Shown one piece after another: positions 3,964-8,739 of a stretch of DNA of 14,816 nucleotides (positions within the stretch are counted from its first letter, which is position 1; each line of letters opens with the position of its first letter). Location of the stretch: positions 1 to 14,816 of the forward strand of contig CALCJH010000194.1 of the NCBI GenBank assembly GCA_937967775.1. The letters are read 5' to 3'. A program made the position numbers and the translations under genes. The notes under the pieces are model-generated. The model was given only the letters and a program-made list of their open reading frames with translations. It did not search any database and was not told the origin of the DNA. The stretch comes from an uncultured bacterium (GTDB lineage: Bacteria > Armatimonadota > UBA5829 > DSUL01).

Positions 3964-5065
3964 TCACTTGATGCCAGCCCGCAGGCCAGCCTCGATCAAC
4001 TCGTCTATCTCACCGTCCATCACGGCTTCCACGTTGCTGGTTTCCGCCTCCGTCCGGTGGTCTTTCACCATCTGGTAGGGCTGGAACACGTAGCTGCGGA
4101 TCTGATTGCCCCATTCAATCTTCCGCTGCTCTCCACGGAGCTCCGCAAGCCGGGCCTCCTCCTCCTGCCGCTTGATCTCCCACAGTTTAGACGCCAGAAT
4201 CCGCATCGCCACTTCCCGGTTCTGATGCTGGCTGCGCTCATTCTGGCAGCTGACCACGATTCCCGTCGGAATGTGCGTGATTCGCACCGCGGAGTCCGTT
4301 TTGTTGACGTGCTGTCCGCCCGCCCCGCTGGAGCGGTAGGTATCTATGCGGAGATCGTCCGGGTTGATCTCGATTTCCGGCCCTTCCGTGATTTCGGGTA
4401 CCACGTCCACGGAAGCGAACGAGGTGTGCCGCCGTGCGTTGGCGTCGAATGGGGAGATGCGCACCAGACGGTGCACGCCCCTCTCCACTTTCAGATATCC
4501 GTAAGCCAGAGGTCCCTTCACCAGAATGGTGGCGTTGCGGATACCGGCCACCTCTCCCTCGACCTCGTTCAGCACCTCAACCTGATATCCTTTGCGTTCC
4601 GCCCAGCGGGTGTACATCCTCAGAAGCATGGCGGCCCAGTCGCAGCTCTCCGTGCCGCCGGCTCCCGCGTTGATTTCCAGAATGGCGTTGGCGTCATCGT
4701 GCGGGCCCGAGAGGAACGTCTGCATCTCGAAGGAATCCAGCTCCGAGACCACGCGGCGCAGCTCCTCCTGGAGATTCTCCTCCTCCGCCTCGTCGCCGGA
4801 TTCTCGCACCAGTTCGGCCAGCACCTCGAGGTCCTCGATGCGCGACGTGATGCTACGGTAGGGCTCGACGACGCTCTTCAGCTTCGCCAGCTCCGTCATT
4901 GCCTTCTGCGCCGCCTCCGCATCGTCCCAGAACCCGGGTTCGCCGCTCTGGCGCTCCAGATCTTCTATGCGCTCCGCTTTCCCGCGGACGTCAAAGATGG
5001 TCCGCGATCTGTTCGAGCCGCTTTCGCAGCTCTTCGATCTCGCGGCCGGCCTCCTGCAACAGCAT
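3964..5065 (-). CDS. prfB: Peptide chain release factor 2, programmed +1 frameshift
   Basis: Release factor 2 recognises UAA and UGA and releases the finished peptide from the ribosome. The gene is in two frames. ATG at 5065 follows AGGAGG (spacing 8) and opens 24 codons that end in CTT TGA, followed by C. Skipping the T at 4993 continues at GAC (4992) for 342 residues to the stop at 3964, giving 366 residues against 365 in E. coli. The frame-1 part contains FWDD near the start, the UGA/UAA-specificity tripeptide SPF in VRISPFDANARR, and the catalytic GGQ in SSGAGGQHVNK. An annotation that ignores the shift would start at the ATG at 4899 and lose 55 residues of domain 1. The frameshift lets RF2 control its own level: scarce RF2 leaves the UGA unread and favours slippage. 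The canonical upstream Shine-Dalgarno-like stimulator is weak here. It heads the minus-strand operon. Confidence 0.96.
4990..4996 (-). promoter_or_regulatory. prfB: RF2 programmed frameshift site CTT TGA C
   Basis: On the minus strand the bases read CTT TGA C, identical to the classical slippery heptamer of bacterial RF2 genes. The P-site tRNA-Leu slips from CUU to UUU, and translation resumes at GAC. The reading after the shift (Asp-Val-Arg-Gly-Lys-Ala-Glu...) joins smoothly to the RF2 coiled-coil domain. In E. coli a purine-rich AGGGGG lies three bases before the CUU; at the same distance this gene has GCGGAC, a poor anti-Shine-Dalgarno match. Confidence 0.95.
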
Positions 5066-5127: not shown

Positions 5128-5469
5128 ACAGCCTTCTCCTGCAGCTACATCCGCGACCTCATCCCGTCGCTACGTGACATCGGCATCTCCGTGCTTCAGC
5201 TCGATCAGCCTACTCTCAGCGGGATAGACTGGCTACGGGAGACGGTGGGCGGCCGGGTGGTCATCTGGTCGCCCGTGGACATTCAGAGAGTGCTTCCCAC
5301 TGGCGATCGCGTTCTCATCCGCGCCGCCGCGCGCGAGATGATCCAGAATCTGGGCAGGGGCGGCGGGTTCATCGCCGGTCACTACGGCGACCTGCGAGGC
5401 ATCGCCTTCGAGCCGGAGTGGCAGCAATGGGCGTGCGAAGCGTTTTTGGAGTTTGCCGACGGGAGATGA
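5128..5469 (+). pseudogene. Truncated uroporphyrinogen-decarboxylase-like (UroD superfamily) gene remnant
   Basis: The plus-strand frame from about 5128 to the TGA at 5469 encodes some 113 residues that read as the C-terminal third of a UroD-superfamily protein. SCSYIRDLIPSL corresponds to the usual HSCG.I..LIPDL segment. It is followed by GISVLQLDQPTLSGIDWL, GGRVVIWSPVDIQRVLP and GGGFIAG. The final WQQWACEAF helix is also in place. The N-terminal two thirds of a normal protein of about 350 residues are missing, and there is no credible start or ribosome-binding site. The reading frame remains open upstream only because it runs antisense through prfB. Members of this branch, often found near sugar-catabolism genes, are UroD-like or methyltransferase-like proteins rather than haem enzymes. 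The remnant stops within a few bases of the prfB promoter, which suggests a deletion or rearrangement joined the two. Confidence 0.7.
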
Positions 5470-5547
5470 CACACCGGCAAAGGGTGTGACCGTGCGTGAG
5501 ATGCATAAGACAGCCCCTTCGTGTCGTTCGTGAAAGCCTGAGATGTT

Positions 5548-5576
5548 GGCCGGGAGCAGTGACCCTGCCCCCGGCC
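5548..5576 (-). terminator. Hairpin downstream of the PEP-CTERM gene, possible terminator
   Basis: Arms GGCCGGG and CCCGGCC enclose a second pair, GCAG and CTGC, around a 5-base loop. As minus-strand RNA the intervening pair is a G-U wobble, so the stem is a continuous 12 pairs; on the plus strand the same position is an A/C mismatch. That asymmetry and its place 19 bases past the stop codon at 5595 favour a role in the minus-strand transcript. No U-run follows, so it may be an mRNA-stabilising or Rho-assisted end rather than a classical intrinsic terminator. Confidence 0.5.
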
Positions 5577-5594
5577 GTGGAACGGAGGAGGAAG

Positions 5595-6284
5595 CTAGCT
5601 CTTCCGAAATCGACGCAGGAAAAGCCCGCCCATTCCGGACACCGTCAGGAACAGCGGAGCAAGCCCGGCAGGCTCCGGAACGGCAGCAAGAGTGGGAGGG
5701 ACAGCAGCCACCGGCTGGACGGGGGCGACGGCGGCCTGGGATGCTCCCGCCCAGCTCCAGCCGTCCCAGCAGCCGTCCTCCAGCACGCGTCCGCTCATCC
5801 CGACCCCCGAATAGGTCCAGGCGGAGGTCGTGCTGGACCGCAGCCAGTAGCTCCAGTAGCCCGCAGTCCACCAGCCCTCCCGGTAATGGTCGCCGGGGTC
5901 CGTGGCCATCCGGTTGTCGTTCGGAGTGCCAACCGATATGCCGTTTACGAAGGTGAGAGCCGGCGAGGTGGCGAAACCGTTGTCGTTGAGGTCATAGCCG
6001 GTGCCGAAAAGCGCCACGCCATAGGCCCCAGAACTGCTGACGTGCACGTAAAGCCTCGGATCCGCTCTGACGATCGCCGCCAGCATATCTTCTCCCTTCT
6101 TGTCGCCATCCCACCGGTATCCCCATGCCAGAGAGGCAGGGTTTTTCCCGTCCTTCCAGTCAATGATGAGACCGGCTTTCTTGCTTCCGGTGCCCACCCA
6201 GAACTGGATGTCCGTGAAGTCAAATGCGCCTGCCGACGTTGACAATGCGACAAGCAGAGCGAGCACAGAGAGAACTCGTCTCAC
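5595..6284 (-). CDS. PEP-CTERM surface protein of unknown function under B12 riboswitch
   Basis: This 229-residue exported protein starts at GTG 6284, eight bases after a perfect AAAGGAGG. Residues 1-20 form a signal peptide. The C-terminus carries a PEP-CTERM sorting signal: VPEP at 202-205, a hydrophobic stretch, then the basic tail RRFRKS. This signal is recognised by exosortase for surface sorting. The body contains the aromatic-rich segments FWVGTGSKKAGLIIDW, LAWGYRWDGDKKGEDM and ADPRLYVH. A Trp-rich stretch (WWTAGYWSYWLR) follows, then a Pro/Ala/Val linker. I cannot name a domain; the WGYRWDG-type core recalls hypothetical surface proteins, but I cannot verify a family. The gene sits alone downstream of a cobalamin riboswitch, so its production is probably shut off when B12 is plentiful. 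That suggests a role in corrinoid capture or in replacing a B12-dependent function, which is inference. A hairpin follows the stop. Confidence 0.88.
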   Translation of the reverse strand: MRRVLSVLALLVALSTSAGAFDFTDIQFWVGTGSKKAGLIIDWKDGKNPASLAWGYRWDGDKKGEDMLAAIVRADPRLYVHVSSSGAYGVALFGTGYDLNDNGFATSPALTFVNGISVGTPNDNRMATDPGDHYREGWWTAGYWSYWLRSSTTSAWTYSGVGMSGRVLEDGCWDGWSWAGASQAAVAPVQPVAAVPPTLAAVPEPAGLAPLFLTVSGMGGLFLRRFRKS

Positions 6285-6424
6285 GATATGATCCTCCTTT
6301 TGTTTCTCCGGTTATGGTTTTCCGGCCAGTATGCCGGTTCCGGCCTGCGGGTCTAGGGGAGCGTGAGACGTTGACGGCAGAAAAGCCGCTCTGCAGACAA
6401 CAGGTGCCCGTCAGACGATGGCTT

Positions 6425-6452
6425 GTGGAGCTTGACAGTTGCAGCGCTCCAC
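6425..6452 (-). other. Leader hairpin between riboswitch and PEP-CTERM gene
   Basis: GTGGAGC and GCTCCAC form a perfect 7-pair stem with a 14-base loop, in the roughly 270-base leader between the aptamer end and the start codon at 6284. It has no U-run, so it is not a classical terminator. Nearby TGACGG and CCGTCA (6359-6413 region) could form a competing stem. Whether either belongs to the expression platform is unknown. The 6285-6552 stretch otherwise shows no convincing small gene. Confidence 0.4.
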
Positions 6453-6552
6453 ATCCAGCCGGGTTCCTCGACATGACGGGAGCCGCTGCTGATGGCGATC
6501 AGGGGGCCTCCTCAACATCTCAATCCCCGAAGATGTTTGCTGGAACGACGCG

Positions 6553-6743
6553 GTCAGGCAGGTCTTCTGGCTTCCGGATCGTCCTACTTCCGGATCCTTC
6601 CCACGCATCCTCGTTCTGAAAGCGCAGTGGAGATCTCCGGTTTCGTCCCCGGTTACAGCGGCGGGCCCGCGACGGCTTTTCACCGTCTTCCCTCTTGGCC
6701 CCGTGCAGCGACGGGGAACCTGGCCGCTACAGTATTCGATTTC
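6553..6743 (-). ncRNA. Cobalamin riboswitch (AdoCbl/B12 aptamer)
   Basis: Read on the minus strand, this stretch has the conserved blocks of the cobalamin riboswitch in order. First are GGTTCCCC and AAGAGGGAA, then GGTGAAAAGCC and the core GCCCGCCGCTGTAA. CACTG and GGGAAGG come next, and last the B12-box segment GAAGCCAGAAGACCTGCC, ending near 6557. It is a cis-regulatory RNA that binds cobalamin and usually represses the downstream gene. Here that gene is the PEP-CTERM protein on the same strand, about 270 bases further on, with nothing else between. The core blocks are all intact, so it is very likely functional. The outer boundaries are estimates; the 5' end is taken from the predicted promoter. 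Confidence 0.95.
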
Positions 6744-6818: not shown

Positions 6819-6847
6819 TTGACAGGCCTGACGGGCGCGAATACAAT
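6819..6847 (+). promoter_or_regulatory. Near-consensus sigma70 promoter of queDEC
   Basis: TTGACA (6819-6824), a 17-base spacer and TACAAT (6842-6847) form an almost perfect housekeeping promoter. The expected start near 6854 gives queD a leader of about 40 bases up to the ATG at 6895. No preQ1 riboswitch fold is apparent in that short leader. Confidence 0.8.
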
Positions 6848-6894
6848 GCCGAGGCAGCGTGTCCGCAGGCGCCGGGCTCGCCGCTTTACAGACG

Positions 6895-7272
6895 ATGTAT
6901 GAACTCGTCGTCCACGTCAGCTTCTGCGGGGCTCACTTCCTTCGCGATTATGAAGGGCCGTGCGCCAACCTGCACGGCCACAACTACCGCGTGGAGGCGC
7001 GCATCACCGGCTCTCGACTGGACAGGGCCGGAATGCTGGTGGACTTCAAACGGGTGAAGCAGTTGGTAGAGGAGATTGTCCGTCCCTTCGATCACCGGGT
7101 GACAAACGAGGTCCCTCCGTTCAACCACCTGAACCCCACGGCGGAAAATATGGCCCGCTTCATTCATGACAGGCTGACTGACTCGCTTAAACCCCTCGGG
7201 CTGCAGGTGGTGTCGGTTGGCATCTGGGAGACCGAGAAGTATGGAGCCTTCTACTCTTCTCCCGCAGAGTAG
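6895..7272 (+). CDS. queD: 6-carboxy-5,6,7,8-tetrahydropterin synthase (QueD)
   Basis: QueD converts dihydroneopterin triphosphate to 6-carboxytetrahydropterin, the second step of preQ0/queuosine synthesis. The 125-residue protein has the three zinc ligands His14, His27 and His29. The catalytic Cys23 is spaced CxxxHGH, which separates QueD from the mammalian PTPS type. FDHRVTNE (about residues 70-77) and the C-terminal WETEKYGA segment fit the active site and pterin-binding Glu. I chose the ATG at 6895. A GTG at 6859 would add 12 residues, but it lies only about five bases after the predicted transcription start, and its extra residues do not resemble the family. The Shine-Dalgarno before 6895 is weak. 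The gene overlaps queE by 32 bases. Confidence 0.94.
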   Translation: MYELVVHVSFCGAHFLRDYEGPCANLHGHNYRVEARITGSRLDRAGMLVDFKRVKQLVEEIVRPFDHRVTNEVPPFNHLNPTAENMARFIHDRLTDSLKPLGLQVVSVGIWETEKYGAFYSSPAE

Positions 7273-8047
7273 CGACCCACTGCCCGCAGGGTCGCGGGAG
7301 CCTGCTGCTCACATCGTGAACATCTTCTCCAGCATACAGGGAGAAGGCCCTCACGTGGGCAGGCGGCATATCTTCGTCAGGTTCTTTGCCTGCAACCTTC
7401 GGTGCACCTACTGCGACACGCCCGAATCGCTCAGCGGCAGCCCGCCGGCTCTGCTGGAACACACTCCTGGAGCCGGAGATTTCACGTGGCGCGACAACCC
7501 GTTGAGCCTCGAGGACGTTGCCGGGGTGGCTCTCAACCTGGCCACGGAGCCTCATGACGCCGTCAGCCTGACCGGCGGCGAGCCGCTTCTGCAAGTTGGG
7601 TTCCTCTGTTTGCTCATTCCACGCCTGCGGGAAGCTGGTTTACGGATCTATCTGGAGACCAACGGCACCCTCCCCGGCAGGCTTGCGAGGGTGATCTCTC
7701 TGGTGGACACCGTGGCGATGGACCTCAAGCTGCCCCAGACTCTGCAGGACGGGCGGGACTGGTCTGCGGACCACGCCGAGTTCCTGCGTATAGCCCTCGC
7801 CCGCGAGGTGTTCTGCAAAATGGTGCTGCCGCCTTCGCCCGACCTGACTCAGGTTCGGAGGATGGCCGAGACGGTGGGCTCTGTATCGCGGGACATTCCC
7901 TTCATCATTCAGCCGGTGACCCCCTTCGGCGCCATCGAACGTCCGCCCTCCGCCGGTGAAATCTGGGACGCCTACGGCACTGTCCGCGCCATCCTGCCGG
8001 ACGTCAGGGTCATTCCTCAGGCCCACAGGATGATGAACCTGCGATGA
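7241..8047 (+). CDS. queE: 7-carboxy-7-deazaguanine synthase (QueE), radical SAM
   Basis: QueE is the radical-SAM enzyme that contracts the 6-carboxytetrahydropterin ring to 7-carboxy-7-deazaguanine. The 268-residue protein has the [4Fe-4S] motif CxxxCxxC at Cys51, Cys55 and Cys58 in the context [23 protein letters not shown] precedes it (about 31-40), the glycine-rich SAM motif TGGEP is at 111-115, and LETNGT follows. An insert of about 25 residues between CDT and the next helix (Pro/Gly-rich, about 61-85) is typical of the longer QueE forms. ATG at 7241 lies inside the end of queD with a 32-base overlap, and GAGA-type purines precede it. The TGA overlaps the ATG of queC (ATGA). An upstream in-frame TTG at 7217 is possible but unneeded. 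Confidence 0.94.
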
Positions 8048-8739
8048 GCGCCGTGGATGTCTCCCGCCCACCGGCGGTCTGTCTTGTCTCGGGCGGGCTG
8101 GACAGCGCCACCGCCGCCGCAATTGCCCGCAGCCGGGGGTTCGAGATCTATGCCCTCTCCTTTGACTACGGTCAGCGTCATCGCAGGGAACTGGACGCCG
8201 CCCGGGCCATAGCCGAATCCCTCGGAGCTGCGCAGCACGTGGTGCTTGGCTTCGACCTCCGCCTCTGGGGAGGCAGCGCTCTCACGTCGGGCATAGACGT
8301 CCCGTCAGGCCGCAGCCCGGAGGATATGGCCAGGGATATCCCTGTCACCTACGTTCCCGCGCGGAATATCATCTTCCTCAGCTTTGCGCTGGCCTGGGCC
8401 GAGACTCTGGAAGCCCGGCACATCTTCATCGGGGTGAACCATTTGGACTATTCCGGTTACCCGGACTGCCGGGGAGAATTCCTGCGCGCTTTCGAGCGGA
8501 TGGCCGCTCTCGGCACGAAGGCCGGAGTGGAAGGGCGTCCGGTGAGTATCGAAGCTCCGCTGGTTCACATGTCCAAGGCGGATATTGTCCGCGAAGGCGC
8601 GCGCCTGGGACTGGACTTCGGCCTCACGTGGAGCTGCTATCTCGGCGGTGAGCGTCCCTGTCAGCAGTGCGACAGCTGCATTCTGCGGGCAAAGGGCTTT
8701 GAGGAGGCCGGACTGCCGGATCCGCTGCTTGCAGGCTGA
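8044..8739 (+). CDS. queC: 7-cyano-7-deazaguanine synthase (QueC)
   Basis: QueC turns 7-carboxy-7-deazaguanine and ammonia into preQ0 with two ATP-dependent steps. The 231-residue protein has the PP-loop SGGLDS at 16-21, [11 protein letters not shown], and [25 protein letters not shown] is the usual nucleotide and substrate loop. The C-terminal zinc site has Cys198, Cys206, Cys209 and Cys212; the family's PCG.C is PCQQC here, with all four Cys kept. It is the third gene of queDEC and overlaps queE by ATGA. Neither the GTP cyclohydrolase (folE) nor the preQ0 reductase (queF) is in the window, so whether the product goes to queuosine, archaeosine-like or DNA modification cannot be read here. 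It converges on the TPR gene 12 bases away. Confidence 0.95.

Follow-up and report, generated by a model that had tools for sequence, protein, structure and literature searches.

The closest described relatives of the system considered here are the carriers transcobalamin, intrinsic factor and haptocorrin, whose beta domain falls in the transcobalamin-like clade of the SLBB superfamily, together with several families of bacterial B12 binders. Bacterial transcobalamin-like SLBB proteins were predicted to be B12 scavengers in 2007 (PMC1796856), in a paper whose main text does not use the word riboswitch. In Bacteroides, the lipoproteins BtuG and BtuH share the trait of surface B12 capture beside BtuB, and two further papers describe DUF4465/BtuJ (IPR027828) as a secreted B12-binding domain whose members bear lipoprotein signals, periplasmic signals or sorting motifs at the C-terminus, BtuJ lying in loci regulated by riboswitches (PMC12751083, PMC13398666). 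The locus analysed here lies in a 14,816-nucleotide stretch of an uncultured Armatimonadota genome (assembly GCA_937967775.1, contig CALCJH010000194.1; hereafter the window), where a cobalamin riboswitch precedes a gene for a surface protein with a PEP-CTERM signal. The explanation that we regard as best, and as very probable, is that a riboswitch-controlled, exosortase-anchored transcobalamin-type beta domain would capture corrinoid at the cell surface.

The aptamer occupies positions 6540-6738 of the minus strand and aligns with RF00174 over its full length (model positions 1-189 of 189), with a score of 129.2 bits (E 8.2e-33, Rfam covariance model) where the gathering score is 31.5. No other Rfam match in the window reaches a gathering score, and the genome assembly (2.43 Mb, 69% complete) holds no second match to RF00174 at E up to 0.001. 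The gene behind it (5595-6284, minus strand, GTG start) encodes 229 residues, beginning with a signal peptide predicted from the sequence (approximately residues 1-20, 6225-6284; helix 2-13 in the model) and ending in the order VPEP motif (residues 202-205, 5670-5681, placed by TIGR02595 and conserved columns), hydrophobic PEP-CTERM helix running up to the C-terminus in the modelled secondary structure (residues 208-228, 5601-5663) and basic RRFRKS. The PEP-CTERM model TIGR02595 passes its cut-off (17.5 bits versus 16), and an exosortase is encoded in the same genome (PF09721, contig C87, E 1.0e-52). A Pfam scan of the protein at E up to 1 returned no match, PF07589 included; at E up to 5, PF07589 matches 37 of 63 family members. 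Within the window the gene stands alone behind the riboswitch, the next accepted minus-strand gene being prfB, which starts near 5065. An intact riboswitch and a lone gene for a protein with signal peptide and PEP-CTERM end, both read from the letters in the original prediction, were thus borne out. An open frame of 212 residues at 5233-5871 (minus strand), which overlaps the gene in another frame, was taken as spurious.

Structure prediction gave the protein a cobalamin-carrier fold. Residues 32-183 (5736-6191, minus strand) form, in the predicted model, a beta-grasp domain of the SLBB type resembling the transcobalamin beta domain, and cobalamin carriers fill 14 of the first 15 rows of the structure comparison, at 7-15% identity in the structural alignments and with about 45-50 of residues 32-183 outside the aligned core. 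The model places a strand at 51-58 before G60, which is 98% conserved in 63 sequences, and strands at 78-82 and 92-97 after a helix at 64-74, an order read from the modelled secondary structure; G89, G94 and G96 are 76-87% conserved in the same sequences, their equivalent position in the carriers being one that only superposition could fix. In contrast to transcobalamin-type carriers, the window protein lacks the alpha toroid, bears a PEP-CTERM anchor and is preceded by a cobalamin riboswitch. For transcobalamin itself, the two halves are reported to co-elute in a B12-dependent manner (PMC5599065). The modelled fold supports assignment to a transcobalamin/intrinsic-factor-type beta domain; what the original prediction had said of surface B12 capture gains support from this fold and from the riboswitch association described below, whereas equivalence to BtuG or BtuH, which differ in fold and are anchored by lipid, is dropped in favour of the transcobalamin-type domain.

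Profile searches bear on whether the protein could instead belong to a known B12-binding family, be it the DUF4465/BtuJ jelly roll, the BtuG propeller or the BtuH domain, that the profiles missed. The entry IPR013424 is presumably that of PEP-CTERM. All three families bind B12 at the cell surface and are controlled by cobalamin riboswitches, and 88 of 824 B12-binding DUF4465 proteins carry IPR013424 (PMC12751083), a precedent for exosortase anchoring of B12 binders. Membership in one of these families is nonetheless exceedingly improbable, for the 14 families that any of the 63 members match at E up to 5 include neither PF14717 nor a beta-propeller, the predicted structure resembles the transcobalamin beta domain with none of the three folds among the matches listed, and the BtuH fold sits instead in a neighbouring partner protein of related loci. 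DUF4465/BtuJ combines a jelly-roll fold with an MNTPSY-type motif, while the window protein and the 63 members have no PF14717 match; the jelly-roll fold is also absent from the listed structure-comparison rows, which do not by themselves exclude it. The profile NF040672 (SCO2322 family) picks up 41 of the 63 members when E values up to 5 are allowed, the best being 7.1e-7; in the window protein it covers residues 143-188 and scores 20 bits, the cut-off being 85. Across 61 genomes it yields only three matches, all of them family members beside cobalamin riboswitches, and it passes its cut-off in none of the 61. SCO2322 itself is, we presume, located near a cobalamin transporter in Streptomyces, and no mention of it was found in open-licence papers. 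Furthermore, newer Pfam labels (PF28005) appear on 4 of 120 listed homologues (P0035, P0093, P0097 and P0106), for which our own Pfam scan gave no such match. A PDB sequence search likewise found no match for the window protein (best E 2.4) or its profile (best E 1.5).

The family comprises at least 163 proteins at E up to 0.001, of which 120 were listed, with the consensus FDDIQFWVGxGxNxAALVIDWNDG...SLAWGYRWDG...GYWSYW...DGWSF; W29, G31, G33, G55, W144 and L168 are invariant in 63 sequences, and the window protein retains the invariant residues. Its genomic context was followed in 80 loci, the best 80 of 254 relatives from a genome-collection scan with one peptide pattern, 51 of which bear Bacteroidota names, many from the single genus Chryseobacterium. 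The domain is present in all 80 (in L017 as a tblastn match instead of an open reading frame profile), and record titles place them among Planctomycetes, Verrucomicrobia, Armatimonadetes, Desulfosarcina/Desulfobacterium and Bacteroidota. Anchoring varies by group: most of the non-Bacteroidota proteins inspected have PEP-CTERM-like ends, and the Flavobacterium protein has a type IX secretion system (T9SS) tail (Por_Secre_tail).

A cobalamin riboswitch accompanies 75 of these 80 loci, upstream and on the same strand in 74, so that the association between homologues and riboswitches asked about at the outset holds. RF00174 was found in 40 of the 45 loci scanned with Rfam, and the other 35 were searched with an nhmmer profile made from 12 of these riboswitches, all from Bacteroidota, every one giving a match. 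Of the loci that bear no Bacteroidota name, 25 of 29 have an upstream riboswitch, 158-487 bases from the match in 15 and 975-2426 bases in 10; the weakest (L013, 38 bits) is separated from its match by opposite-strand open reading frames. In L018 the riboswitch lies behind the matched gene and ahead of a second family copy. The five loci without one are L015, L075, L078, L023 and L038, the last two being counted as misses even though a contig end (L023) and an operon running off the locus edge (L038) prevented a proper test. Chance association is ruled out because 41 genomes surveyed hold just 0-4 cobalamin riboswitches each. In Desulfosarcina cetonica (L018:6404-6820), a cyclic di-GMP (c-di-GMP-I) riboswitch and, immediately after it, a cobalamin riboswitch share one strand, and in L015 (3786-3865) a c-di-GMP-I riboswitch alone stands ahead of the beta-domain gene, which suggests joint or alternative control of the family by c-di-GMP and B12 in these bacteria.

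The neighbours of the domain in related loci differ by phylum. In a Flavobacterium operon (L019), the riboswitch is followed by a BtuB-like receptor (TIGR01779, E 3.4e-24, far under its cut-off), a BtuG-like YncE protein whose top PDB hit is BtuG1 (8blw, E 3.1e-55), a protein that matches PKD_3 weakly and a 760-residue protein that joins the beta domain to a DUF5074 domain and a T9SS tail. In three Verrucomicrobia loci (L006, L007, L022), larger proteins lie behind the domain protein or are fused to it and a pilin-like protein comes next, with a Peripla_BP_2 protein and an ABC ATPase after it in L022. The partner protein of related loci, absent from the window, has the predicted fold of the C-terminal B12-binding domain of BtuH2, and this Armatimonadota partner is where the likeness to BtuH resides. 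One 841-residue protein (P0198) joins the predicted BtuH-fold partner domain to DUF4465 (E 1.1e-54), and would thus unite a pair of distinct B12-binding folds, the BtuH-fold one by prediction. In Bacteroides salyersiae (L034:4857-9095), the beta domain shares one 1412-residue frame, partly of masked letters, with an immunoglobulin (Ig) domain and BspA-type leucine-rich repeats, with cobalamin riboswitches on both sides of the frame.

Beyond the family itself, 50 above-cut-off cobalamin riboswitches were surveyed in 41 genomes (the window's own and 40 relatives) under stricter filters, which lose weak riboswitches; 47 were informative after removal of L149, L165 and L166, which contig ends cut off. 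A type-IV-pilin-like gene is among the first genes behind 35 of the 47 (within L107-L126 and L138-L164), and a BtuB-like receptor is behind only four (L110, L111, L150, L154), the counts of BtuB-like, BtuF-like and pilin-like genes being based on profiles built from the loci themselves. The two never occur together (0 of 47), a hand-calculated chance of about 0.003 for the four BtuB loci (C(12,4)/C(47,4), kinship ignored), and eight loci have neither (the window, L113, L125, L140, L142, L151, L158 and L161). Counting the window, 13 of the 47 loci contain a beta-domain gene, and a crude pattern finds a different PEP-CTERM-like protein in nine; in L157, L162 and L164 the pilin gene is followed by a BtuF-like one. 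The riboswitch-linked pilin-like proteins have an N-terminal methylation motif and are related to DUF1559. Pilin-like genes are plentiful (51, 30, 11 and 24 matches in four genomes), and the riboswitch-linked ones are the top matches to the pilin profile, which contains G001's own copy, in all four; margins are wide in three genomes (313.8 versus 140, 265.9 and 255.7 versus 133, and 253 versus 112 bits) and smaller in G010 (170 versus 131 bits). Judged by these profile scores, the riboswitch-linked pilins form a distinct type-IV-pilin-like subfamily.

Four of 31 genomes (G008, G009, G013, G025) returned no exosortase, and neither these nor many exosortase-bearing genomes returned a beta-domain match; the four keep the pilin at five of eight riboswitch loci (L112, L114, L118, L119 and L141, not L113, L140 or L142). 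A broader and distinctly tentative reading is that a surface system of Armatimonadota, and partly of Verrucomicrobiota and Planctomycetota, replaces BtuB, with riboswitch-linked pilin, BtuH-fold and transcobalamin-beta PEP-CTERM binders passing corrinoid to BtuF and with the window protein as a reduced offshoot. Its pilin route, likened to the role of competence pili in DNA uptake, is put forward equally tentatively.

Comparison with the same genus places the window copy in this setting. A congeneric operon (L107) holds riboswitch, beta domain, pilin and partner together, its beta-domain protein sharing only 31% identity with that of the window. In the 69%-complete window genome, no riboswitch-type pilin was found (best match 141.8 bits, at background level), nor was the specific N-terminal part of the partner, matches covering only residues 288-524 of 525. 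The C-terminal part of the partner, aligned to OB-fold proteins, has 27 matches in this genome (e.g., C21:3644-4225). Solo beta-domain cases number 2 of 47, the window and L125, and the genome of L125 also carries a full operon (L148). These sequence comparisons suggest that the window holds a pared-down, solo version of the B12 module, the absence of pilin and partner being suggestive only at this degree of genome completeness. Proteins with B12-binding domains occur in all five genomes checked, window genome included, and CbiD is absent from all 31 genomes searched for it (the aerobic synthesis route lay outside that search), a pattern consistent with scavenging.

The pilin and partner genes of the L107 type not being found would also fit a riboswitch that is a decaying leftover, the gene being no longer controlled by B12 or related to it in this genome, which the state of the leader and gene makes very unlikely. 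The aptamer outscores the other 49 surveyed, the invariant residues are kept, and both a promoter-like site and a Shine-Dalgarno sequence are intact. The former, a sigma-70-like TTGACA-18-TAGACT (6779-6750, minus strand), is a consensus match only, at 10 of 12 positions, and ends 11 bases before the aptamer; the latter, AGGAGG (6298-6293, minus strand), was recognised from the sequence. Between aptamer and GTG start lies a leader or expression platform of 255 nucleotides (6285-6539, minus strand), in which a search for an intrinsic terminator found none, and folding of 6255-6600 on the minus strand is barely above that of shuffles (z -1.29).

Under the preferred explanation of corrinoid capture, the riboswitch would permit expression of the message when corrinoid is scarce, B12 lowering expression as expected of the class. 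The signal peptide would export the protein, and the exosortase would act at the PEP-CTERM motif to retain it at the surface, where the beta-grasp domain, rich in conserved tryptophans, may bind cobalamin or related corrinoids for uptake, as fold and context indicate. In Bacteroidota relatives the beta domain would act beside BtuB- and BtuG-like proteins, and in Armatimonadota and Verrucomicrobiota relatives beside the BtuH-fold partner and a dedicated type-IV-pilin-like protein.

Several points weigh against this explanation. Corrinoid binding by the window protein is a prediction from fold and context. Foldseek alone gives no significant match (best E 0.34); the case for the fold rests on the consistency of the highest-ranking rows and on VIA-align, both applied to a predicted model, and no alpha toroid, which completes the site in transcobalamin, was found for the lone beta domain. 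Pfam DUF4430 (PF14478), first suspected from the YWSYW...DGWSW pattern, has no sequence match in the window protein (threshold E 1), in the 63 members (threshold E 5) or in any of 61 genomes, the later fold comparison being its only support. Moreover, four of the 80 loci (L015, the matched copy of L018, L075 and L078) lack an upstream cobalamin riboswitch without a visible technical reason, and in L015 a c-di-GMP-I riboswitch takes its place. The incomplete window genome yields no convincing BtuB (only E 1.2e-4 to TIGR01779), and partners may be missing from its assembly. Alternatively, a B12-regulated surface protein with the same transcobalamin beta-grasp fold might bind another ligand instead (a sugar, peptide or partner protein) or do no more than dock the BtuH-fold partner, its riboswitch being operon history. 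Such a role would suit a solo gene and the adhesin-like fusion of L034, and diverse ligands are described within the SLBB superfamily, home of this fold (PMC1796856). It is nevertheless improbable, if the least so of the alternatives, given that cobalamin carriers make up nearly all of the closest-fold rows and that the riboswitch link spans Armatimonadota, Verrucomicrobia, Planctomycetes and Bacteroidota loci, which operon history alone is unlikely to maintain.

The titles and abstracts retrieved from open-licence literature described neither a riboswitch-linked pilin nor a family that joins PEP-CTERM and a transcobalamin-type beta domain under cobalamin-riboswitch control. What is new is thus the combination of PEP-CTERM, transcobalamin-type beta domain and cobalamin riboswitch, together with the pilin link, the part that could be categorically new; PEP-CTERM B12 binders as such have precedent. 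If the fold assignment is right, several bacterial phyla possess riboswitch-associated surface proteins with the fold that carries B12 in animals, the transcobalamin-like scavengers predicted for bacteria in 2007 acquire a direct, testable regulon, and a candidate function becomes available for the 163 or more proteins whose main domain matched no Pfam model and for the BtuH-fold partner. In addition, a pilin-like gene is conserved in the B12 regulon of a phylum with few BtuB-like genes behind its riboswitches, and if the pilin does act in uptake, the view of how B12 crosses such envelopes would change.

Elsewhere in the window, divergent queD-queE-queC-like genes (PTPS, radical SAM, QueC) occupy 6859-8739 of the plus strand behind a strong promoter-like site, TTGACA-17-TACAAT (6819-6847), back to back with the riboswitch promoter. 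The prfB gene (3964-5065, minus strand) falls into two frames, the short N-terminal one starting at 5065 and reaching a stop at about 4996-4994 and homology resuming in the other from about 4995, which presumably resembles the programmed frameshift of release factor 2. Between prfB and the queD-queE-queC-like genes, on the plus strand, an open frame of 113 residues (5128-5466) resembles the C-terminal part of uroporphyrinogen decarboxylase, at only E 0.14, and is possibly a gene remnant.
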